Source: Fistulifera solaris
Taxonomy: Eukaryota; Bacillariophyta; Bacillariophyceae; Naviculales; Stauroneidaceae
DNA length: 64,000 bases
Assembly: GCA_030295235.1 (NCBI GenBank)
Contig: AP026149.1
Span: 744,001 to 808,000 of the forward strand
Direction: 5' to 3'
Shown piece by piece: positions 11,588 to 43,100 of this stretch; position 1 is the first letter of the stretch; the number at the start of each line of letters is the position of its first letter. The position numbers were made by a program, and so were the translations under genes. The notes beneath the pieces are model-generated. The model ran no database searches. It had not been told where the DNA came from and saw only the letters and a list, made by a program, of their open reading frames with translations.

Positions 11588-11893
11588 TCAGCAAATTTCG
11601 TGGACGGCCATGGAATCGATAAAAGATATTGGGTCATCCGTTAGATCCATAAAGACAGGAACGTTCTTGGCGGAAGATTGGGAAAATGATTCACTGTATC
11701 GTTGACACAATCGCAACTGAGCACGTCGCAACACATGCCATTCGTCTTCGACCGACTGATTGGTTAATATTTCTTTCATGAGGCGCGTCGCGTCGTGCAG
11801 TGTTGCCAACGCTTCTTTGAATAAATGGCGATGTAGCATCTCCACACCCATGTTGTTGAGCGCCATTGCGGTGCGTGACAAAACGGGTGACAT
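11588..11893 (-). pseudogene. Truncated unit-1 copy of the TPR-like gene
   Basis: The first ~93 codons, from ATG 11893, are nearly identical to the 260-residue genes at 16558-17340 and 22002-22784. Similarity stops at about 11612, inside the codons for DPISFIDSM, where unrelated sequence adds AVHEIC and a stop. The remaining ~165 codons are absent from unit 1. This looks like a deletion or replacement when the array formed, leaving one TPR-like pair. Confidence 0.75.
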
Positions 11894-16557: not shown

Positions 16558-17340
16558 TCAAGAAAGGATGTTCGTGAGCGTATGTGACGGGAACACATGC
16601 AGAAACGATGGATGGAAAAAAAGTAGAATAATGTCAACAATCAGTGCGCGATGCGCGACCAAAAGACGGTTGATTGTCGGGAATATTGTGGGTATGAAGA
16701 CGCAATCTTGTCGCGCTTTGTTCCCTTCCAATTCCCGCGCTCTGGAAGGGAGCTCTTTCGACAGATGCGACAAATAAGGAATCGTTGAACAGCAGTGCCA
16801 GATGGCCAATTGAATTGTTGCCGCCTGAACGAAAAGGTCGTTCTCTTCTGGTGTGATTTGTTGTAAAAGCCTATCCGCAAGCTTCATCAACGAGGGCATC
16901 GTTGAGTGGTAATGCATAGCAAAGTGATTCGCTAAGCCAGTATTGTACAGCAGAATGGCAGATTGCATGTCAAGATCTTCGTAGCAGGCTGTGTCGATAT
17001 CGCTGATACGAATTGTATACAGCGTAGGATGATGTTGACGACATTGAGTGTTCTTCATGGAATCGATAAAAGATATTGGGTCATCCGTTAGATCCATAAA
17101 GACAGGAACGTTCTTGGCGGAAGATTGGGAAAATGATTCACTGTATCGTTGACACAATCGCAACTGAGCACGTCGCAACATATGCCATTCGTCTTCGACC
17201 GACTGATTGGTTAATATTTCTTTCATGAGGCGCGTCGCGTCGTGCAGTGTTGCCAACGCTTCTTTGAATAAATGGCGATGTAGCATCTCCACACCCATGT
17301 TGTTGAGCGCCATTGCGGTGCGTGACAAAACGGGTGACAT
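16558..17340 (-). CDS. TPR-like helical repeat protein, unit 2
   Basis: 260 residues from ATG 17340. The N-terminus (MALNNMGVEMLHRHLFKEALATLHDATRLM) has the A-x-x-N-x-G and EAL-x-x-x-x-x-A spacing of a tetratricopeptide repeat. A second pair starts near SAILLYNTGLANHFAMHY. These proteins are usually protein-binding scaffolds; no enzymatic motif is visible. The C-terminal 30 residues (IVDIILLFFHPSFLHVF) are hydrophobic and may be affected by a T-run near 16614-16620, so the true 3' end is uncertain. It is transcribed leftward toward the VWA gene, like its copies. The function is unknown. Diatoms have many such short TPR-like genes, but I cannot name a family. Confidence 0.6.
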   Translation of the reverse strand: MSPVLSRTAMALNNMGVEMLHRHLFKEALATLHDATRLMKEILTNQSVEDEWHMLRRAQLRLCQRYSESFSQSSAKNVPVFMDLTDDPISFIDSMKNTQCRQHHPTLYTIRISDIDTACYEDLDMQSAILLYNTGLANHFAMHYHSTMPSLMKLADRLLQQITPEENDLFVQAATIQLAIWHCCSTIPYLSHLSKELPSRARELEGNKARQDCVFIPTIFPTINRLLVAHRALIVDIILLFFHPSFLHVFPSHTLTNILS

Positions 17341-22001: not shown

Positions 22002-22784
22002 TCAAGAAAGGATGTTCGTGAGCGTATGTGACGGGAACACATGCAGAAACGATGGATGGAAAAAAAGTAGAATAATGTCAACAATCAGTGCGCGATGCGC
22101 GACCAAAAGACGGTTGATTGTCGGGAATATTGTGGGTATGAAGACGCAATCTTGTCGCGCTTTGTTCCCTTCCAATTCCCGTGCTCTGGAAGGGAGCTCT
22201 TTCGACAAATGCGATAAATAAGGAATCGTTGAACAGCAGTGCCAAATGGCCAACTGAATTGTTGCCGCCTGAACGAAAAGGTCGTTCTCTTCTGGAGTGA
22301 TTTGTTGTAAAAGCCTATCCGCAAGCTTCATCAACGAGGGCATCGTTGAGTGGTAATGCATTGCAAAGTGATTCGCTAAGCCAGTATTGTACAGCAGAAT
22401 GGCAGACTGCATGTCAAGATCTTCGTAGCAGGCTGTGTCGATATCGCTGATACGAATTGTATACAGCGTAGGATGATGTTGACGACATTGAGTGTTCTTC
22501 ATGGAATCGATAAAAGATATTGGGTCATCCGTTAGATCCATAAAGACAGGAACGTTCTTGGCGGAAGATTGGGAAAATGATTCACTGTATCGTTGACACA
22601 ATCGCAACTGAGCACGTCGCAACACATGCCATTCGTCTTCGACCGACTGATTGGTTAATATTTCTTTCATGAGGCGCGTCGCGTCGTGCAGTGTTGCCAA
22701 CGCATCTTTGAATAAATGGCGATGTAGCATCTCCACACCCATGTTGTTGAGCGCCATTGCGGTGCGTGACAAAACGGGTGACAT
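22002..22784 (-). CDS. TPR-like helical repeat protein, unit 3
   Basis: 260 residues from ATG 22784, differing from the unit 2 copy by only a few residues (for example FKDALAT for FKEALAT, HVLRRAQ for HMLRRAQ). It has the same TPR-like pairs and the same hydrophobic C-terminus, so both intact copies have kept an open frame. The role is unknown. Confidence 0.6.
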   Translation of the reverse strand: MSPVLSRTAMALNNMGVEMLHRHLFKDALATLHDATRLMKEILTNQSVEDEWHVLRRAQLRLCQRYSESFSQSSAKNVPVFMDLTDDPISFIDSMKNTQCRQHHPTLYTIRISDIDTACYEDLDMQSAILLYNTGLANHFAMHYHSTMPSLMKLADRLLQQITPEENDLFVQAATIQLAIWHCCSTIPYLSHLSKELPSRARELEGNKARQDCVFIPTIFPTINRLLVAHRALIVDIILLFFHPSFLHVFPSHTLTNILS

Positions 22785-24379: not shown

Positions 24380-26491
24380 TTAATCTTGATTTCGGACTGG
24401 TCGTGGAACCGTTATGGTATATTGCGACGGATCTTTTGAAAGATTCAATTTCATGATGGAAAAAGTGCCAATATCATCACGATTTCGACCTGAACTCGCA
24501 TCCTCGATCCATACATTACCTCTACAAAATATAAAGTCTTCGGCGTCATTTTTGTTGCGTGACTTCAAGTCTTCCAATGCAGGAATACTAAATGTGTTAG
24601 AAGGTAACGGCATAGCCTGTCCTTTCGTTGACAAGCGTTCCAGTGCCCCTTCCATCACAAGGACGCGCTCTTTCTTGGGCGGGATCTGTAGTCGAATGAG
24701 CAATCGGGCCGTCGCGTCGGTTTCTCCGGAGAAGGCCCATGTCCCACCAGCGGCTTTCTGTTGAGTTTCTGGATCTAAAATAGGACCTCCCGCTGTCGTT
24801 CCATCAACGCGCAAAATCAAGTTTTCTGACTGGTCCTTGTTATTTTCCATTGGTTCAAATCCTGTCGGAGAACGTACCATACGCCAAAATCCCACCAAGT
24901 GTTCACGACTAGGATACGGAGGAAGTACTGGCGTTTGTGTAGATGGTGCTTGAGACTTCTCAGCGATTAAGGTCCCGTTCTTATACTGAGCAAATATTGG
25001 ATTGTTTTCAATGGCAGGTTTGTCTTTCTTGGTAGAAAGTTGTTGCAAACTACGTTCACGAGCTCGGGAAGCGATGACGTTTTGAATTTTTTCCCGCATC
25101 CATCCATCCAACGCGGCCGGGTCTGGAGGAGACTCCGGTTTGTTCGGCTCGAGTATGGAGTCAAGTTCCACATTTTCTCGGTCGTCGACGTTCGACAATG
25201 CGTCGTTAGACTTAGCTTCAGATACACTTTGCCCGTATACTTGTTCCAATCGCTGTCTTGTTTTTGATAAGATAATGTCGTCCTCCTCGCTGTGCCTCGG
25301 TTCTGAATAAGCATTGCGTGGTTCTTCTTGGTTTTCTAGTTGGTTCGAATTCTTCAGCGACTTTTCAGCTTTTTGGATTCGTCCTTCTTGATAATCCTGA
25401 AATTCTCGTTCACGTCGCAGTATCGTTTGATTTGATCCAACGGGCAAAGGCCACGTTACACTTGGCCATGAAGCAAGCGCTTTGTTCTCTCCAGACAAGG
25501 CATAAAGTCCGATTTCCGGCAATCGCAGGTGATCTAGTCCTAATGCATCATCCATGTATTGTATCCAAAACAAAGGCGAAATCCCATTCCCTCCTTGATC
25601 TGATGTGAGTGTATATCGTTGATTGTTGTCGTCGTCTGCAGTAATATTGTGTGCGCTTTTTAATATCATTTCCCAGTCATCGGGTAACTGCAGGAAGGGA
25701 AGACGTAATTCTGTCTCTTGCTTCTGTTCCCGAGCCCAGGATAAAGTCCAAGACGACGACTGCTGAAGCAATGTTTGGTTCAAACTTTGCACAAAAGAGT
25801 TAACGCAAGGACTGACGTAGTCCGAAGTCGCAAACAAGACACTATTGTCGACGTTGTTTCCCTCCAATCCTTTCCACGACACCATCCACGGTTCCTGCTG
25901 CAATTCCGGTTGTTGTAATACAGTTTCGATGCATTCCTGCAGTTGCTGCAAAGCCTCATTCGGAACTTCTTCCTTCTTCATTTCGAGTTGCAATAAAGGC
26001 AGACGCAAAGCCGCCGCAGGGATGCACGCATGCACCAAAATGGGACAATGGTAGAGAATAGCGCGTTGGATGCTTTCCAATTCAAGTGCTAATTCGTGAC
26101 ATGTCTCCATCGGAACAGCAATCAAGTATTTTTGTGTTGATTGTTGACGGTTCATTTTCATGTTCTTTTTCCTGTCGTTGCTCGTCCAGTCGTCTTTATG
26201 GTTTTCATTCAAAAAGTTGCGAATGAATTGAGACATTTGTGATGATTCTTCGGGTCGTTGGGATAAAGCTAGAGGTGACCTTGTCGACACTTGATGTCGT
26301 TTTGATTGTTGATGAGGAAAAACCGTCCATCCTCGAACGGCATTCACCGCAAAAAGAAGGAAAAGCAATTTCGTGTTTGTGAGGAGAATGAAAGACATGA
26401 TTGCTTTACTATAAAACATTGAGATAATAAGAATCATCATCATGATCGTCGCGAGTCGCGAGAGGCGAGTTATGGCGTTTTGATTATACAC
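24380..26491 (-). CDS. Unknown protein, probably plastid-targeted, two-domain
   Basis: A single open frame of 703 codons. The likely start is the ATG at 26398 (MSFILLTNTKLLFLLFAVNAVRGW, a signal peptide); the longer frame starts at 26491. Basic and Ser-rich residues follow, as in a plastid transit part. Residues ~120-330 contain KYLIAVPME and two related segments, HACIPAAALRLPLLQLE and ETELRLPFLQLPDDW. These are reminiscent of 2H phosphoesterase-like folds, but I see no clear HxT pair. The middle is charged and probably coiled. The last ~150 residues (HLVGFWRMVRSPTGFEPM, GGTWAFSGETDATARLLIRL, DFIFCRGNVWIED) alternate as beta strands and may be a calycin-like barrel. I do not recognise a named family. 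Confidence 0.7.
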   Translation of the reverse strand: MYNQNAITRLSRLATIMMMILIISMFYSKAIMSFILLTNTKLLFLLFAVNAVRGWTVFPHQQSKRHQVSTRSPLALSQRPEESSQMSQFIRNFLNENHKDDWTSNDRKKNMKMNRQQSTQKYLIAVPMETCHELALELESIQRAILYHCPILVHACIPAAALRLPLLQLEMKKEEVPNEALQQLQECIETVLQQPELQQEPWMVSWKGLEGNNVDNSVLFATSDYVSPCVNSFVQSLNQTLLQQSSSWTLSWAREQKQETELRLPFLQLPDDWEMILKSAHNITADDDNNQRYTLTSDQGGNGISPLFWIQYMDDALGLDHLRLPEIGLYALSGENKALASWPSVTWPLPVGSNQTILRREREFQDYQEGRIQKAEKSLKNSNQLENQEEPRNAYSEPRHSEEDDIILSKTRQRLEQVYGQSVSEAKSNDALSNVDDRENVELDSILEPNKPESPPDPAALDGWMREKIQNVIASRARERSLQQLSTKKDKPAIENNPIFAQYKNGTLIAEKSQAPSTQTPVLPPYPSREHLVGFWRMVRSPTGFEPMENNKDQSENLILRVDGTTAGGPILDPETQQKAAGGTWAFSGETDATARLLIRLQIPPKKERVLVMEGALERLSTKGQAMPLPSNTFSIPALEDLKSRNKNDAEDFIFCRGNVWIEDASSGRNRDDIGTFSIMKLNLSKDPSQYTITVPRPVRNQD

Positions 26492-27123
26492 TTCGCGCTT
26501 TTGTTTGTGGTCAGTGGCGTTTCAGGGTCAGGTGACTGAAATTTAGTCGCGATCGCGTACAACCAACACTTTACCGTTATAGTGAAAATGGCAGTCGACG
26601 ATACGGGGGCTTTCGACACAGATAGTTGCGTTTCGAGTGAAGAGGATAGTTAGTTCATGTATTGGTATTTTCATGGCATTTATACTGATAACTATTATGT
26701 AATTATGTAAGGATCAGTTGATGTCATCGTCGTCTTGCAGAGAAAGAAAGTATTGATGACATCCAGGCCTACAGGACGATAGGTTTTAGCAAAATACACA
26801 GGGTATGAGATCCCGCATGGGTTGGGTGATCCGGTCTCGGCTAAAGTAGGCCTGTACGTAGTAGTGCATGCGGGTGAAAAATAGATCCTGCTATTCTTAT
26901 CTTTCGAAACAAAGTTCGATCCAGCAATGAAAAAGCCCTCCAAGTGAAAGTGAAACTCGACATGCAGTGCACACGAGGGGAACACACGTGACACGAGACA
27001 TCTTGACACATGGTGATTGTTCAGCAGCAATTTGTTTGGTTTGCATGTTGCTGCGTCATTCATAGGGATAGTTCAGCTGAGATTCGGAATTCGTTCGTTC
27101 TTGTGCATAATTTGGACTACTTG
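26492..27123. other. Intergenic / 3' flank of the thioredoxin-like gene
   Basis: It contains the SECIS-like hairpin at 27020-27059 (minus) 65 bases after the stop of the upstream-lying gene. The 122-codon minus frame at 26695-27063 overlaps it and has no recognisable features. Confidence 0.5.
27020..27059 (-). promoter_or_regulatory. SECIS-like hairpin in the 3' flank (candidate)
   Basis: On the minus strand, ATGAC is followed by GCAGCAA, a 17-base loop region containing AAA 12 bases after ATGAC, then TTGCTGC and TGAA. GCAGCAA pairs perfectly with TTGCTGC. TGAC/TGAA flanking the stem fits the UGAN/NGAN quartet of eukaryotic SECIS elements, and the unpaired AAA fits the apical AAR. Weak points are a stem of only 7 pairs and a poor lower helix. 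It matters because three in-frame TGA codons lie in the gene just upstream. Confidence 0.4.
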
Positions 27124-27830
27124 TTAGAGCTCATCACCCGCAGTGGACTCGGTCTTTCGTGCAGCAATCATCTTGGAAAGGATGCGACGGCGACGTAGAT
27201 TCCATTCTTGTAATCCCTCTTGCAATCGCTCGACATCCATACGCGAAATACGCTGATACTCCTGCTCAATTTCCTCCAACGTTTTAGGACTCATGCGCTC
27301 CAAGTAATCAACTTCATGCTGATTGCAATTGGTGTTATCCAATCCACACAAAACCGTCTTTCCGTACTCTTCAATGTAATCGACCATGGCATCAAAGGTA
27401 CCGAGTTCATCGCAGATGGATTTGGTTGTTTTCTTGACATACGAACCACCTTCGACACCCGTTTCACTCGTAAAGTAACGAATGGTCGGCCAACCGCCAC
27501 TGCCCGGATTGTGAGGAGATCCTCTGACATCGGAGCCGGCTTCGGCTAAATTGATGTCGCCTAAGACGACATCGTTGTTCCCCTGAAACGCCCGCACGGC
27601 ACGATTCCATGCGGGCGCTTGCTTTCGTCATCACCCTCATCTCGAACTGGCTATCCAGCGAACGAAAGCGGTTTTGCCGTTGGAAGAAGCTGCCGTGACA
27701 AAGTTTCGAGCGCTTCGCGATCTTGGATTTCCTTCACTAGCGAAAAGTGTCCTTCGGGGTAAATGGCTTGCACAACAGTCATCGAGCACAGCCAATAAAT
27801 GACCGCGAGGCCGCTGCTAAACGCCTTCAT
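27124..27830 (-). CDS. ER thioredoxin-like protein, possible selenoprotein with TGA codons at the redox site
   Basis: The start is ATG 27830, with signal peptide MKAFSSGLAVIYWLCSMTVVQA; the protein ends in GDEL, an HDEL/KDEL-like ER-retention signal. Thioredoxin-fold features are SLVKEIQDREALE, then NGKTAFVRWIAS (central strand), then RKQAPAWNRAV, the helix after a CxxC, and GGWPTIRYF with its cis-Pro. Between AS and RKQ the frame reads S-R-TGA-G-TGA-TGA (27639-27628). Aligned to W-C-G-x-C-K-K, both cysteine positions are TGA. The frame continues unbroken across them. One upstream base is missing from the frame at about 27704-27706 (CGAAAC, expected GAAAAC), probably an error; counted back, the frame is 235 codons. 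Alternatives are a decayed gene, or an intron from GTGAAG (~27757) to GAAAG (~27626) that would delete the redox strand. Confidence 0.6.
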
Positions 27831-28074
27831 CGCTTTATTTACACGTCTCCTGTCGCTTCTCTTTCTTATGAGCTGTGAAAATATTACGCACCGATAAGGA
27901 ACGAGCAGTCTTTGTGACAACAGTTTTGGACTCGAATCTTCTCTCTTTGATTGTCACCAAAAGTCGGCAAAGCAGCAAGACTGTGACCGTTGGTGTTGTA
28001 TTGTGTGTTGTGGCGGATCAGGTCGGAAAACAACGTACGTCGACAGACTGTACCGCTGCGACAGAGAACAAAAA

Positions 28075-29539
28075 CTAGATACCATCGGCTTCGAACGTAA
28101 TAATTCGTCCACAATCGTCCATAAGTTGATTCATGCGCAAAGATGGTTGATCGGTTACATCAATGAAGCTTCCAATGATTCGCGCCGGTACTCCTACTGC
28201 CACTGAATGTGCAGGAAGATCGGCAATCACCAAAGTTCCAGCTCCAATTTGACATCCGTCCCCTTCAGCACGACACAAAGTTAGTCAGTATCAACTAAAG
28301 ACATGACCCATGAGTATCAACGTATCTCATAGTTCTTACCGATACGAACGGGACCGAGCAGTGTGGCACCTGCTCCCAACAAAACACCATTTCCGACTTT
28401 GGGATGTCGATCGACGCCTTTCTTTCCCGATCCGCCCAAAGTTACATGATGCAAAATACTGCAATTGTGACCAATAGATGCCTGTAAAGCACGAAATCGC
28501 GTGCGTATCCAGAAATTAGACTCGTGGAATGACGTCGAAATGAGACTCTTTTTCGTCTTACCGTAGATCCAATCACAACACCCGTCCCATGATCGAGTAA
28601 AATACCGCTCCCCAATGTAGCCGCTGGATGAATATCAATTTGAAATGTTTGTGAACTTTGTGATTGCAAAAGAGTGCTTGCGTATGTTTTCCCTGACTCC
28701 ACAAATAATGCGCGACGCGGTGGGTTTGGAGAGCGTGAAAGCCCTTAAAGTACAAAAAAAGCATCGGGCAAGTAGCTGCAGGCAGGATCACGATCCCGTA
28801 CAGCCATAATATCTGCTCGCAAAGATCGTCGAAACACTGGACTGTGTTGCAGAGCATCCAAAACGAGCGATTGCAACTGTGTTGAAATCATCATAGCAGG
28901 GCTTTGTAACCGATTGGCTAGCAAGAAGGCCAGTGAACTTTCGAGAGATGGATGATTGAGAATCGTGCTGTGCAGAAACGATACCAGTAGTGGCTCTCGG
29001 TTGGCTTGCTCGTAAGCTTCATGGCGGAGGAGATCCCAAACGCGATCAATTTTGCCATCTTGACTGTAGACTGTTTCGGGGATGCTGAGATCAATGTCGG
29101 GATAAAGGGGAATTATCGATGCCTTCACGTCTTCAGACGACAACGTCAATGACGATGAAAGTGTATTGTCTGGATTCGTAGCGGCAAAGTGTTGTTCGTC
29201 CCATAATGCCGAACGCAAAGTCTGTGATGTTTCATCGTGGGCTACCACATGATGTGTTGTCACGACAGAAACGTTGGTAGTCGTTGCTGTAGCTGTGTCT
29301 TCCGAAGACACTGAAGCAAGGCTGACATACGATATCTTATTGTGGACAAGAGATGGCTTTTCCACGGGGAGAGGAGCAATCCAGTGTTTTGCCGCATCCG
29401 TGTTGTCATCATCTTCTCTTCCTAGTTTGTAGCGAACACCGAAAAGAGAAAATGATATTCTTGCGAACGATGCATGCAGAGGAAGCCACGCCGCCGTCAG
29501 TGCGGGAAAAAGGAGGCGCAGTAGGTATAAAAACTTCAT
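28075..29539 (-). CDS. SAT: Serine O-acetyltransferase, three exons
   Basis: It transfers acetyl from acetyl-CoA to serine, the committed step toward cysteine. Exons (minus) are 28562-29539, 28340-28481 and 28075-28262, with GTAAGA and GTAAGAAC donors, giving 435 residues. The start at 29539 (MKFLYLLRLLFPALTAAWLPLHASFA) gives a signal-like N-terminus that may be a plastid presequence; 33 bases more are open upstream. The SATase N-domain includes ADIMAVRDRDPAC. The catalytic left-handed beta helix has DIHPAATLGSGILLDHGTG, IGHNCSILHHVTLGG, GVDRHPKVGNGVLLGAGA and IGAGTLV, with the conserved His pair in DIHPA and LLDHGTG. The frame leaves and returns between a run of seven A at 28754-28760 and a T run at 28687-28690. 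In between it reads FLYFKGFHALQTHRVAHYLWSQGK, which is family sequence, so both are probably errors. Confidence 0.88.
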
Positions 29540-29769
29540 GATGTAATAAAAGTAAAAGATTAGAATAAGCACGGCTGATTATGATGATTTGATATTTGAT
29601 TGAAGATCGGACTGCGAGAACTTCATATTCATCAAGACTGGATTTCAGTCATGAGAGGAGAACGATTCTTTTTGTGCGCGCATAACCCGCGTTGTTGTGT
29701 TTGCAACTTACGTATACTTTCATGCCTTAGGTGAGAATATGATTAAAACTTAATATGAGTAACATCGAT

Positions 29770-34119: not shown

Positions 34120-37100
34120 ATGGGCCAAGAGGAATTGCCGAGCAGTGCCTCTGCGTAAGTACTTTTCTTGCATACTATCTCCTTGAAAGGACAAGAATAA
34201 TCCATCTCATCTTCGATTCATATTTCATGTTATGTTATGTTATGTATATTACAGTGAATCTCCGGGTCGTAATAGCAATGAAAAGCCACAATCGCAACGC
34301 TCTTTACAACTCCGCGCGAGTGAGACAATTCAACTAGAGCGAAAAGTGAGTATGGCGGCTCGCGAATTAGTCGAAAGCGTACAAAGTATTGTTATTGAAG
34401 CAAAAGAGAAGAAACTTGACTGGAAAGAAAGCCTTTTGCTGTTGCTGGGGGAGACATCGACCGCCGAGGAAGAAGAGGAAAAAGTCGAGGCACCGATGAC
34501 AGTTTTATTGACGCACCGCAAAACGTTACCCACCTTTGCAGCACGCTGTATCGAACAAGAGCTGCCTCCCAATCTCATTCACTGTTTGCTTCTCCTGCGG
34601 GTGCTTGAGTTGAAAAACACGGATACCGAAACGCCAGCGGCGTTCAAGGCAACACGCAACACGCTTCACCTCCTCATGGCTCTCTGTACTACTACACAAA
34701 CAGGAGAGCAATTACAGTCGCACTTGTTCGGATTACTAGCATTGAGTGGAGCTAGTTATCCAGAGACGGGATTAGCGGTCGCGATGGCGGCTTCCTCGGT
34801 CATCATAGCATTGGCGCAATACTGCTGGACGCCGCAAATTGTTTGGTATATTCACGATCGAAAGATGATCTTTCACATGACCGATGACATTAAAGATTTG
34901 ATGCAATTATCGACTGCCACTTCTGCTCCGGCTAGTACATCCTCAAATGCGTCGGTGGGTGACGGAGGAAGTATTGTTTCAAATGAATCGTCGGCTACGA
35001 ACGGTTTGGTCGGCGCTGCGGCAGAAAAGGCAGGATTGTGGAGTATGGCACTGAAGACGCTCGTTTCGTTGGTCCATTATTCCACCCAGTACGGCAGTAC
35101 TTCTTTGGTAGAGGATTTCGTGGCGGCTGGAGGTTTGGCTGTTCTTAAAACGGCTCTGGAACAATCGACAGCACCTCACGGGCGTGAGCTGGTCGAACTA
35201 ATTCCATTGTTGGTGTGCTGTGGATATCGAGTGGAACAAACCAATTTGGATGAGATTGTTCCGAATCGCACTCAACAGGCGTACGATTTAAAGCTCGTGC
35301 AACACCCGGTAGCGTTGGAGCTCTTTCAAACTCTTTTGCAGGAAACAAACCCGCTTTTCGATGAAAAGAAACAGTTCAATCATTTGTTTTCCCGGAAGCT
35401 CTTTCCGCGCTGACAAGCCGGTCCTTGACTCGCGCCTCAAATGCTGAGTGCCAACCTAAATATGCCTTTGACCTTCAAGGCGAATTTATGAGCATCTTGT
35501 TACGCTTATTTGCAGACCACCCTGACAACTACGAGCTGCTGGAGGAATCATACCATGCATTGACCTTTAGCGTTTTAGCTTTACCATGTATGCCTGTTGA
35601 CACGAAAAATCTTGTTCTCAAAACGCTAGAGTTTGTTTTGACGGGTGTTGGTGTGAAACAGCAGCTGTCACCGGTTCATGCTTGCGTGGAAATCTTCATG
35701 GCGTTGATTCACGGAACGCTCACCGAGAAAGACGACAAGTGGGTAGATGACGCAGCTCTCATGGCAAGTACTTTGGAAAAATGGCTGCAATTTGATCAGC
35801 GCGTTGCGCCACTTTTGCTGCAAAGCGGTATGATGACGGCGAAACTAGAATCGTTACTGGGATGGCTAGAACCGCAAGTCGATTTGTCTGAATCGTCCTT
35901 ACATGTTTTGCCTGCTTTGAATATCGTTTGCAGGGTGTATCGGTTGCTAGTACTACATGTACCACCACCAGAGCCGAATGTGCGGCATCCGTTGCACAAG
36001 CTACTCGAAATGACTGTTCTGCGAGATTGGAGTTTGGACGCCTGTCAAATGGTAGCTGGGGTCATAGAAAATTTTCTGATGGTACATCCACAGGACATAG
36101 TATATACCTTCGATCTTGTGATGATGATAGAAAATTCTCAGTCAAAGAAATCTATTCTCTTGTGGAATATGATTCGAAATGTTCTCGAAGTGGCAGGCAA
36201 AGACTTGTTTAGGGAGTGTGGAGGCTTCGAAAAACTTCTCGAGTGCGAAACGTTACCTTTAAATATCCTGTTGTCGGTGGTGGAGGCAGCACTGGGGCTA
36301 TCGAAAGCGGTGTCGAATTCAACTGGCAAGAAGGACGGTTTGTATTGGCAACCGTCATGGGTGGATCCCTACAGCAGTCAACTCGTTCCTTGGAGTGATA
36401 TGACTCGAAATCGATGTCATTTACTTCAAACGGATTTCTATTTTAAAGTAGCCAAAAGGGTCAATGCGGAATACGAGAAAGCATTGGACGCTGCGTTTCA
36501 ACACGTGAGACGTGACAAGGATACCATTCGAAACCCTGATGCAATCCGCTTACTAATTGCTTTAGTGAATACTCGGCCACCGCCAGAAACAGCGGCCTTT
36601 GGAGCTGTACAGCAGTTGTTGGAATGGACTGACTCGCCGAGCCTTCTGCAGCAACTTGCAAGTATGGGGCTAGTTCACTTTCTTACTGACGGAGAATGGT
36701 GGCAACCTATTCGACTTCGACTCGCAAGTTATCGTCTGTCGCTTACTGATTTTGTCGACTTGCTGCGATCCCATGCCGGCCCTTTGTTGCGACAACAAGA
36801 ACGCATCAAGGTACCCATTATTTCTGGGAGCAGTCGTAGAAGGACTGTGGGTGAGTTTGACGAGGGTCATGTAGTCGCTTGTTTGCAAACATTGGTTGAG
36901 GCTGCCCGTGCTTCTTCCCAGGCTATGTCGTCTGTGATGTTAGGAGGAGATTCAATTAATAGTTTAGCGGTGCTGAGACACGATGTCCCTTTGGTCGATC
37001 GTCTCCGAGCTGTTGCCGAAGAAGGCCGTCTGCATTACATGGAATTGGAGGCACTATCGTCTGCTGAAGAAAACGTCGAATCTACGCTGAATAGTAGTGG

Positions 37101-40100
37101 CTTTTCCTACTCACTTTGGTTTCGTCACTCGTCGGATTTTTCTAAAGCACAAGGTAATCTTTATGTTTTGGACCTGGCAAGCTCTCTTCCCGCGGAATCG
37201 ACAGCAGCAACGCCAGCAACGAATCAAGTATCGTACTTGACCGTATGGTATGACGTTTCTGACCAGCGATTCAATGTGTGTACGTCAGCGCGCGGAGAAA
37301 GCATAGGCTTTCCAGTTACGCCGCTGGCTCCTTACGTCTGGCATCATCTTATGTTAACTTACAGCCCGGCAAAGCGAAGCATGATGTCGCGAAAGAGCAC
37401 TGTCAGTTTGTACATAAATGGTCGTTCCCTCGAAGCTGAGGTCCGCGTTGACGCTGTAACCTTTCCGAGCAAATCAAAAATTTCGATTGGAGTCCCTAAT
37501 CCTACTTTGGCTGTGAGTGGTATCGTACGAGGACGGATGCCAACATGGGAGGCCGGCAATTTACTCCTTTTACAACAGTTTTGTTGGATTATGACGCCAC
37601 CGCCATCTATTGCTACGGGCCTCATTTTCCTGGGTTGCTATGGGGTGACCGACCGCAGCGCACAAGCCTAGCGGCCACCGCAACATCATCTTTGCGCAAT
37701 TTGCACTCAATCAGGAACCTGGAAGCTTAGCCAGTGCTCTACGCAGGCGTGATATAGTTAAAATGGAACGAGCTGGTTATTCGAAACACAGCGACGAGCT
37801 GCAATCCCTTCATTTGTACTGTCAAATTCCACCAGACGTTCTTTTAGCAGCATTCCAACCAGGAACGGCGCAGCGGACTAATCATCGGATCATGCAACAT
37901 CGCCTCAATAATCTTGCGGCGCTGTCAGGATCGGAGTCAGTCGCCAGTGATGCTATATTAGTGGGGCTATCTCCGATCATGGTGCGACATCCTTCTTGGT
38001 TTGCTGACGCTTTATGGCAAGCAGGTGGACCAGACTTACTTGTGCCCCTAATTCACGCCGCGCCCTCGAGTGTAATTTTGGAGCAATGCTTAGCATTGAT
38101 GCGCTTCGCCGTTCGTGGTCACATCCCGAATTTAAGTCGGTTACAATCAGCTGGCGGTTACCGAGTTCTGGGTGTCCTGCTGCAAGAAAAGCATGCTGTT
38201 GATGTAAACTGTATGGATCAGTGTCTTGCGTTCGCCATTTTCGATTACTTCCAAGAAGGGAACTGGACTTCGTGGATTCTGCAAGATTTGGATGCGATGA
38301 AGCATTTGTTGTTGAATCACAAGGTTTGGGACTTGCGTAAATATGGACCAGAGGTACCGTTGAGGCTCCTCAGGGCACTTAACCTATTGGTGGATCACCG
38401 TTCAATACACAAAGCATCCAATGCTCGTCGTCTACATCAGGTTGGTATAGTACGTTGGACCATTCATTTAATGATTGAAGCAGCAGAACTTTACATGAAC
38501 GACAAAGAGAAAGCATGGGTCTGCGACAGTCCGCTGGTGACTGAAATCACTGTGGGTGGAGATCCAGGGAACATGTTCTTGTTGGAATGCAAGAGTCTTT
38601 TGAGACGAGTGTTGACATTCATGTTGACGCCTGGCGATCTAGGGGCTTTGGCTGAAGCTTCAATTTACACAGTAAGCATCGCAAAAACAACGCTCCTAGA
38701 GACAAAGCCGCAAACGATATCTATATGCAGCCTTCGTCTATTATGCGACTGCATTTAGTGAGATTGATGGAGGAATTAATTGTCGATGGCGTCAATGAAA
38801 TTGTCGCTTCGCACACCATGAATACTGGGAAGGCTGATCGAGGACGTGACGCGGTATTCCAACCGCACAGTGGAGGTGTTGCTAGCCCCGGTCAGCCATA
38901 CTTTTCAACCCCTAATCGTCGTGGTATTCAAGCCGATGGAGTGACACTACACCCCAAGCACCAACAAGCGCAGGCCTTCCTAGCAGCGTTTTCGGGATTT
39001 CTCACCCCTGTTTGGTTCGCAACTTTGCTGGAAGGTGGCCGCGAAGAAGCAAGTGTTGCGGCTACTTTTCGATTGATGATCTTGTTATTGCAGGGCTCAA
39101 GTAGTTTTGAGTCAAGCTTCCAACAAGCTGGTGGATTCACTCCATTCGTCTTATCGGTTCCGCGTTACTCTACTTCTCCAGGCCTTGCTATCGCAATGCT
39201 GAGTCAATTGTTAAACGTTCCGATCTTGCACTTGCATTCTTTACCATATCTGGACCCTGACCAGCTCTGTGAGCTGTTTGATGCCGAAGGAGACGCTTAT
39301 ACCGAAATCCCTGTTGACGACGATCCTTCAGCTGGAATTTTTGCTTTATTGGCAGAGTGCCTAGGTCGGAACATAAAGATTTCGTACGATGAAACATCGG
39401 ATTTATCTGTCCGAGCTACTGATACCAATCAGGCAATCTTTCAGCTGCTACTGCATCGATTCGACGTATCGCCGAATTTCCGCGAGTTTTGTGCCAAAAA
39501 TTCTTTCTGTGTTCCCTTATCGCAGACGTTATGCTCAATCTTGGGTTCGAAGCTTCCGATCAAAGTAAGCGCGACGTTGGCAGAAGCGCCGCAAGGACCT
39601 AGCAAACCCTCTGAAATGTTCATCGGGAACAACCAAGATAAACATGCTCAGGGTATGGGCTTGGTTCGATTGCTGCGTCGTATTTTACTATCGAGTATCA
39701 AGGATATTCCCTTAACAGCTGCTACAACTGTTCGAACTCTGTTCCGTAGTTTTCCCATCCATGCAACGCCCGACCAAGCCCAAGCGTTCCATCTGATTCT
39801 ACTAGAGAATTGTTCGTTCTCGATGGAAAAGGTATTAGAGGAGGGTGATGCAATCGCTGTTGCGAATTGTGTTGGGATAGGCTCCGTTTTGCTGGAACTT
39901 GTCGTGCAAGGATTTTTTTCTGGACAGGCATTACTGCAGGCATTTCAAATCACAGCCGGGGTTTTGGACAAATTAGTTAAATTCGAAACCAATTCTGTTC
40001 ATTCTTTGTCCAATGCGGAACATTCTTTCATGACGCACGACGCAGCACACATCACTCAAGCCATGGCAGCAGTAGCCTTACAACAAAGCGCGATTGCACG

Positions 40101-43100
40101 CCCTTACTTGCGAATGGGAGACGAAGATCTACAAAGTGCTCTTTTGCAAGAACTAACTGAGCGAGTAGACATCGTGCTTCTCGTGCCGTCAAGCGATCGG
40201 CGCCATGCGCGGCGCATCCCAGCTCACAAGTTTCCACGCCCCGCACCAGGAAATAAAATGTACCGACTGTGGCTGTCGACGTCTGTAGCTCGAGTCATAG
40301 AAACCAGATTCTATCCCGATTTGGCTTCCAGTGAACGCCCTGATTTAGCAGTATTGGCGCCTTTACTCGTGGTTGTCTACCAACTACTCGTCGACGGACG
40401 AGATGATATTCGTGGAATGTGTATCACTATTTTGGTCCGTCTATTAAAGCATCGCGAAAAGGCGATGACTGAGTTACTCGTTGCTCAATTTCAACAGTCA
40501 GATGGAACCGTGGAGCGGGTCGACATTGTGACACGCGGGGGTTTTCGTGCTCTTTTGTTGGCGTACGAAGAAGGAGGGACGCCCCAAAGCCTACAACGGC
40601 GTTATGCATCTTTTTTCGAGTGGTTAGATCGTCAGGGTGAGCAAGTCGACGTTGTTTTTGATTCTGTCCAACGTGTTAGCAATGATCTGTTTCCAGCGCT
40701 TTCGAGGTATTCCACAAGCAGTCAGTCGCCAATCTATGCTATAGAAGCAGAGCAAAAGCGTATGCTGCTCAAACTGACAGCCGAAGACTCTGATCGTACT
40801 ATCATCGGAGGTCTAGAGCGCTCTGAATTATCCCGTCACTGTAATGAACGAACATTAGAAAGGCACAATCGATGGAAGCGACAAGGTTTTGACGATTTAG
40901 CTTACGGTGCCATGGCACTCAAGATCTTACTTCGAAGATTAAAAGGCCCTTTTAGCGTATGGGAAGGCAACCAATTGCCTTTTGAAGACGTAAAACATTG
41001 GAAATTAGACATGACTGAAGGGCACGAAAGACAACGACGGAGGTTGCTGCCGAACTACGAATTTCATGACTTGTATAACTTAGACGTGACTATCCAGGAG
41101 GATTCGCCTGTTGCGGAAGTAGGCATCGAACAAGAAGCCGAAGAGTCGATTATTGAAGAACGCGTGGTTGCTTTGGAAGCTACGGCTGAGTTACTAAAAG
41201 ATTTGAAACTGAAGCGAGCTCAGCATCGCGATGTGGAAGACGATTTGGAAGAGTTCAATGAAGATGCTGCTGAAGATGTAACTGTCGCGACCACAGCAAC
41301 GGCTGCTAGTTCCATGGATGGTAGCACTCTTGCTGATTCTGAAACAAATGAAAAACCCGCCGAATCGAAGGAGGAAGTTTCGGACGAGGAGAGCGAAAAG
41401 AAGGTCCCAGCAACGACGATTCGTACGAGCTGGTCATTGGATTACTGCGAAAGGGAGACTGGCCATTGAAGAGTTATAATTGTCGACGCTGTACTGGTTT
41501 AGAGGTTATGCAAGCACTTTTCTTGTTCTGTCAGGAAGCTGTTTACATTATTGACGGTTTCGAACAAATTAACGGAGAAAAGATTTCACGCGTTGAGCGG
41601 GAGAAGTCCTCATACCATGTCTCGCTGCGACCGAAAGATTTTAAGACAACGGAGGAAGAGGATGCAGAAAAGGGAGGAACAGCCAAGGCAATTAGTAGCG
41701 TAAAAACTCGGGAAAAGGATACAAAGAGACACCCCGGCGATTTGACTGCAGAAGTCTTGCACCAGCATCGGAGTCAGCGCATCGAGTTTTCGCAGCTATA
41801 CTCAGTTTTGCGAAGACGCTACCAGTTGCAGCAGAGCGGACTCGAGTTCTTTGATATTCACAAAAATGCCACCTTAATTGCTTTTGATAATAACAGCGAT
41901 CGCGAGGGAGGTTCTTACCAAAATTCTCTCCAGCCAATTGCACCCGGATAGCATTTTTTCCGTTTTCGGTTCTTCCAACTACGTCAAAACGATTTCGAAT
42001 TACAAGCAACGGATCATTTCTCAATGGATGAAAGGTCAAATGACGAACTTTGATTTCCTTATGCATCTCAACAGTCTTGCCGGCCGTTCGTTTAACGATC
42101 TCACTCAATATCCTGTGTTTCCATGGATTATCGCCGATTACGATTCTGAAGAAATTGATTTGCATGATCCCAAAACATACCGTGATTTGAGTAAAAACAT
42201 GGGGTCACTGGGCGAGGAGCGGGCACAGCAATTTCGCGAGCGATACGAAGCACTTGAGTCGACCTACTTCGGAGAAGACGATCCACCACCGTTCCACTTC
42301 GGTACTCACTTTTCCTCTGCAGCTTACACACTTTACTATCTCATGCGCCTTGAGCCATTCTCAAGACTTGCGTTAGCTCTTCAAGGGGGTCGATTCGATG
42401 TAGCAGATCGTCTGTTTCACGACATTGGTCGGTCTTGGAAAAGTGCATCCTCCGAGAACCTGCAAGATGTTCGCGAACTTATTCCCGAGTTCTTTTACTT
42501 ACCAGATTTCCTCACCAATACAAATGGATTTGATTTTGGTGTCACACAGAAAGGGAAATCAGTTCATGACGTTACCTTGCCGAAGTGGGCCAAAGGCGAC
42601 CCTGAACGATTTGTGAGAATCAATCGACAAGCGCTTGAAAGCACGTACGTGAGTCAACACTTACATCAATGGGTCGACCTGGTGTTCGGATATAAGCAAC
42701 GCAGTATTGAAGATTTAAACGTCTTCGTACATGTAACATACGAAGGAGAAGTAGACCTGGAAAGCATGACCGATCCAATTCAACGAGCAAGTACAATTGC
42801 GCAGATCCAAAATTTTGGACAAACTCCTAGTCGTCTAGAGCGAAGACCTTTCCCGGCTCGTCAAGTCGTCTCTGTTGTTCGTGATAGCATGATCGATTTC
42901 AGTGTCTTGCCGCAGCTGGCCTTGATGACTCCGCCGCTTTGTGTAATGGGTGCACCACACCTAGTAAAGCTAAGCATGACACACTCTGAGACTGTGAGGT
43001 TAGGTCTGTTTGGACAAGTCGATCGAACGGTTGGCGATTTGTTTTTGGTGAAGGGGCAAGTCATGGGCGTCGGTCGCATGTGCACCATGATGATGGCTCA

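Follow-up and report, generated by a model that had tools for sequence, protein, structure and literature searches.

The window, the whole 64,000-nt stretch of Fistulifera solaris DNA analysed here, carries on its minus strand a nuclear gene that in all likelihood encodes a small thioredoxin-like protein of PDI_e type, probably located in the ER lumen; the three TGA codons of its U-G-U-U site would be read as selenocysteine (Sec). The genome, which is described as allodiploid (PMC5935921, PMC13276009), contains two homoeologous triple-Sec genes, one in the window (C31) and the other on contig C30, beside two Sec-free paralogues on C25 and C26. A 25-base primer designed for one homoeologue of an F. 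solaris gene (PMC13276009) has a single, mismatch-free match in the genome, and its reversed control has none. Judged from these sequences, the three TGAs very probably encode Sec at the active site, and we infer that Sec is actually inserted and has a redox role.

The window gene spans 27124..27830 (-), from an ATG at 27830-27828 to a TAA at 27126-27124, as defined by translation of the frame and comparison with the C30 homoeologue. From start to stop it measures 707 nt, a multiple of three plus two. The first part, from the ATG, translates as MKAFSSGLAVIYWLCSMTVVQAIYPEGHFSLVKEIQDREAL and includes a hydrophobic N-terminal stretch, MKAFSSGLAVIYWLCSMTVVQA (27765..27830, -), which reads as a probable ER signal peptide. 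From 27702 onward the translation is FVTAASSNGKTAFVRWIASSR U G U U RKQAPAWNRAV and continues to a C-terminal GDEL (27127..27138, -), presumably an ER-retention-like tetrapeptide. The only stop-type codons between 27702 and the final TAA are three TGAs, at 27639-27637, 27633-27631 and 27630-27628 (-). Together with the intervening GGG they form TGA GGG TGA TGA (27628..27639, -), assigned as the U-G-U-U active site by alignment to the WCGHC of PDI-type proteins and by the TGAs of the C30 gene. Retranslation of the minus strand returned exactly the frame and TGA positions given in an earlier sequence-only reading of this DNA, and agreed with its statement that neither TAA nor TAG interrupts the stretch.

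A protein search of the genome (51.7 Mb in 61 contigs) gave 11 matches: the window gene, C30, C26, C25 and seven weaker ones. The C30 match (91%) has three TGAs, and those on C26 and C25 (51%) are without stops. The C30 gene is unbroken from ATG to TAA over 234 codons, including three TGAs at positions identical to those of the window copy, and its active-site region reads SGUGUURKQAPAW (GUGUU). The two copies differ at 35 of 193 codons (21 synonymous, 14 nonsynonymous), so retention of all three TGAs shows that the pattern is real and not due to chance. Past the last TGA, differences number 8, 3 and 19 at codon positions 1, 2 and 3, respectively (p = 0.0012), and the 167 codons after the TGAs give a dN of 0.041 and a dS of 0.146 (dN/dS about 0.28). 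The concentration at third positions, together with dN below dS, points to protein-level selection on the part that follows the TGAs. Between 27702 and the first TGA the corresponding counts are 1, 0 and 7. The residue preceding TGA 1 is Arg (AGA) in the window copy and Gly (GGA) in C30.

When phmmer aligns the protein to TXNDC5 and PDI, both cysteines of WCGHC are matched by TGA 1 and TGA 3, with TGA 2 immediately before the second, which is the placement that the sequence-only reading had proposed. The best E value, 8.5e-5 to TXNDC5, applies to the whole chain, as no single stretch is significant alone in the best-scoring chains. Against Pfam Thioredoxin the score is 18.5 bits, short of the 23.5-bit cut-off, and at E up to 1 Pfam gives nothing for the C26 paralogue. 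A structure model built from four sequences is poor (mean pLDDT 49.9) and gives a hint of the fold at most. With this low-confidence model, Foldseek found 42 PDB chains at E <= 0.001, with titles naming thioredoxins, PDI-type proteins and designs. These weak sequence and model matches are to a thioredoxin-like fold. The hydrophobic N terminus, together with the C-terminal tetrapeptides of the family (GDEL in the window copy, SDEL in C30 and GNEL in C25 and C26), suggests a location in the ER lumen.

The C26 and C25 paralogues (L011, L012) resemble the C30 protein in sequence (48% identity), in their hydrophobic N terminus and in ending on such a tetrapeptide, whereas at the active site they have H-A-D-C and no TGA. 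These four residues occupy the same columns as U-G-U-U without any gap, with the third U opposite Cys. The sequence-only reading would have counted homologues with ordinary residues and a clear intron here as a refutation; these homologues have ordinary residues, and their ungapped alignment argues against an intron. Our scanner found no SECIS-like site within 700 nt after the stops of either paralogue. Two further cysteines (161 and 168 in C30 numbering) are identical in all four family sequences and could act as a relay pair.

Downstream of the window gene lies a SECIS-like element (27021..27059, -), located with our own scanners and descriptor and composed of ATGAC, a 7-bp helix, a 17-nt loop with AA, and TGA. 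A 7-bp helix is short for the SECIS class. The hairpin, ATGAC-GCAGCAA-loop-TTGCTGC-TGA, begins 65 nt 3' of the stop. Its C30 counterpart, ATGAC-GCAGCAA-loop-TTGTTGC-TGA, has one G-C pair of the helix replaced by G-U and an 11-nt loop. The descriptor (ATGAN, a helix, a 9-30 nt loop with AA, then TGA or CGA) was written after viewing these UTRs; within the first 600 nt of the 3' UTR it finds exactly one site of at least 5 bp for 8 of 10 selenoprotein genes, namely SPS2, two TrxR, two SELENOT, SELENOU and both PDI_e copies. The same 600 nt of the two GPx genes yielded no site, because their hairpins have a short loop without AA. By eye, these genes (L028 and L029, on C19 and C20) have a common post-stop hairpin consisting of ATGAT, GGTATTTA, a loop and TGA. 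Scanned on both strands, the window gives five descriptor sites of at least 5 bp, and the single one of at least 6 bp is the 27059-27021 element. The background, 322 kb of strand from 47 further loci of the genome after omission of 21 loci (selenoprotein loci, overlapping loci and the C30 stretches), contains 24, 11 and 2 sites at thresholds of at least 5, 6 and 7 bp, respectively.

A first general scanner, applied before any tuning to 700 nt of seven UTRs, gave matches in SPS2 and both PDI_e copies; it missed both TrxR elements, giving one other TrxR site, and both GPx. With widened spacing, sites appear in five of the seven UTRs and nine occur in the window, where the element comes third by energy and is the best of those with ATGA. 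Rfam returned no SECIS_1 (RF00031) match within 26000-28300 at E up to 10, and none among the 133 of 985 first-look candidates scored across the genome. As the genome has clear selenoprotein genes, this blank makes the model uninformative for F. solaris, and it is also why we call the element SECIS-like. Compared with shuffled sequences, the 66-nt window element folds better than most (z = -2.61, 6/200), the 68-nt C30 element is not better than most (z = -0.65, 47/200), and an 87-nt window stretch folds no better (z = 0.15).

The sequence-only reading had made recoding depend on a selenocysteine machinery in the genome, and tRNA-Sec, SPS2, SepSecS and eEFSec are all found. Rfam lists 14 tRNA-Sec matches, six of them above cut-off; the control genomes gave matches in 14/14 and above cut-off in five, so weak matches mean little. 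ARAGORN assigned the anticodon TCA to five tRNA genes in the four loci scanned. The Rfam matches are paired on C27 (L002, 205 nt apart) and on C29 (L004, 210 nt apart) and single on C3 and C4; ARAGORN confirms both members of the C27 pair and one only on C29. Several tRNA-Sec genes have also been reported for another diatom, Fragilariopsis cylindrus (PMC5330540). SPS2 on C16 reads KGUACK and scores 128.3 bits against a cut-off of 125 (above cut-off in 2/14 controls), though a second TGA in this match may be intronic. All five SepSecS matches, on C9 and C10, are above cut-off (controls 3/14), and eEFSec domain III has three matches on C12 and C11 (controls 0/14). SelB-like matches beside two tRNA-Sec genes were rejected as eEFSec, the translated one (L051) being EF-Tu-like by eye, as was a further SelB match (L054) that appears IF2-like; the eEFSec-specific domain was used instead. 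Other selenoprotein genes are likewise present: two of seven GPx matches have a single TGA (C19/C20), TrxR on C45/C46 ends in GGCUG, SELENOT on C13/C14 reads CTSU, and one of nine SELENOU matches, on C4, has a TGA.

Relative to C30, the window copy has a single-base frame break in 27703..27707 (-), where the C30 homoeologue is one base longer. To place this break in context, open frames of at least 200 codons from 38 kb of C30 were compared with the window by tblastn. Among the 12 C30 frames with a match in the window, three (2403, 808 and 476 codons) shift frame four, one and three times, respectively. A further 325-codon C30 frame, in the adjoining apparent serine acetyltransferase gene, changes frame once in the window, which may equal an intron. 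Two of the C30 frames have no window match above 60% identity. When 13 window frames were in turn compared with C30, those of 612 and 687 codons shift there, and those of 727 and 331 codons have short tail matches in another C30 frame. Breaks of this kind are thus no rarity in the assembly, and the one at 27707-27703 is most simply, and in our judgement from the sequences most likely, an assembly error. The sequence-only reading had given as a caveat that the missing base must be an error. An error is supported by the intact C30 frame with its extra base and by the other breaks in the contig, although a real mutation may also account for the break.

Elsewhere in the window, the four shifts of the 2403-codon C30 frame fall within 34229-41433 (+), which points to indel errors at the base level in the window contig. 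The gene is flanked upstream by an open frame at 28745-29572 (-) with SATase_N, the serine acetyltransferase N-terminal domain (E 3.1e-27), and this gene seems to extend with introns to about 28075. Serine acetyltransferase catalyses the first step of cysteine synthesis. The downstream neighbour, at 24380-26491 (-), has an AKAP7 2'5' RNA ligase-like domain (E 5.6e-6). Three similar ORF copies, about 5.4 kb apart at 11609-11893, 16558-17340 and 22002-22784 (-), match one C30 ORF, C30_14623_15279, with proteins 85-88% identical.

Several other explanations of the TGAs have to be weighed. If they were intronic, the mature protein would have no redox loop, and the sequence-only reading had itself cautioned that such an intron could keep the frame. 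Suitable splice pairs do exist: 23 GT-AG pairs of 40-250 nt in C30 would excise all three TGAs with the frame kept, and the window copy has 10 such frame-keeping pairs downstream of 27702. However, none of the candidate donors starts GTA or fits GTRNGT, whereas the apparent introns of the upstream neighbour start GTAAGA (by eye). The C25 and C26 paralogues, moreover, are continuous through the TGA columns, which disfavours an intron, and EST alignments of PDI_e in several organisms are reported by Jiang et al. (PMC7539508). We regard the intronic explanation as very improbable. Even less credible is that the TGAs arose by sequencing error or act as ordinary stops, with the downstream similarity a mere fossil. 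The frame breaks elsewhere in the assembly lend this idea something, but the same three TGAs stand on the homoeologous contig, the region downstream of them is under selection, and the published PDI_e has the same motif (PMC7539508).

A more serious alternative, although still an unlikely one, is that the window copy is decaying as a pseudogene, which would leave C30 as the one working PDI_e gene. The one-base break and the Gly to Arg difference immediately before the first Sec would both fit decay. On the other hand, the differences after the TGAs cluster at third positions, the window copy retains an intact SECIS-like element, and the repeated breaks of three long C30 frames in the window contig look like assembly errors. 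Recoding at a thioredoxin-type site, as the sequence-only reading had proposed, is thus supported by the homoeologue, the intronless paralogues, the SECIS-like element and the machinery genes.

If the two triple-Sec genes are decoded in this way, the three UGAs would be read as Sec by tRNA-Sec and eEFSec, with insertion directed by the putative SECIS hairpin of the 3' UTR. Sec 1 and Sec 3 would then take both redox positions of a CxxC-type site and may form a diselenide, with Sec 2 predicted to adjoin Sec 3. On balance, we consider it fairly probable that one SECIS drives three close Sec insertions, two of them consecutive, that the product is an ER thioredoxin with three seleniums (a UxxU diselenide and a vicinal Sec), and that the Sec form and the Sec-free HADC form are each kept as a homoeologous pair. 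Were this so, two chemistries, Sec and HADC, could be compared within one editable organism. Efficient genome editing has been reported for F. solaris (PMC13276009), and an editable species with both forms therefore allows direct tests of how a three-selenium site is used and how adjacent UGAs are decoded from a single SECIS.

Such a site has a precedent. The sequence-only reading knew of no described U-G-U-U site, but PDI_e, defined by Jiang et al. in 2020 by three neighbouring Sec in GUGUU, is exactly that (PMC7539508). PDI_e is described there from 12 genes in 10 algae, mainly Haptophyceae and SAR and with no bacterial homologue, with EST alignments and SECIS predicted in several organisms, and is presented as the first selenoprotein in which two Sec are consecutive (PMC7539508). 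In the literature we searched, as judged from listings, consecutive selenocysteines were a feature of PDI_e only, and a search for Fistulifera with selenoprotein gave no other paper on the triple-Sec gene. Pattern searches for relatives in two sets of viral and prokaryote contigs gave 3 and 28 matches in viral_contigs and 36 in genome_contigs, none of them confirmed. EhSEP2 of Emiliania huxleyi, identified following 75Se labelling, likewise has a single PDI-type thioredoxin domain with Sec in its active site, though one Sec (UGHC) as opposed to the three of the F. solaris gene (PMC6254913).

We assign the C30 and C31 genes to PDI_e by motif, domain, SECIS-like element and taxon, comparing them with the published description of the family. 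The Rfam SECIS_1 model, which they do not match, does not belong to that description. C30 has GUGUU with three Sec codons, as in PDI_e, and the window copy, RUGUU, differs at the first Gly. The domain is likewise thioredoxin-like, here by phmmer and by Foldseek with the low-confidence model, Pfam being below cut-off. Both F. solaris copies have a SECIS-like element by our own scanners, in keeping with the SECIS predicted for PDI_e, and F. solaris (Bacillariophyta) belongs to SAR, within the host range of the family. According to the published account, the F. solaris homologues have lost the motif (PMC7539508); those homologues are presumably the C25 and C26 paralogues. Unlike in that account, two genes keep UGUU. 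The present case corrects the published statement, and suggests that F. solaris, reported to have lost the PDI_e motif, still has it.
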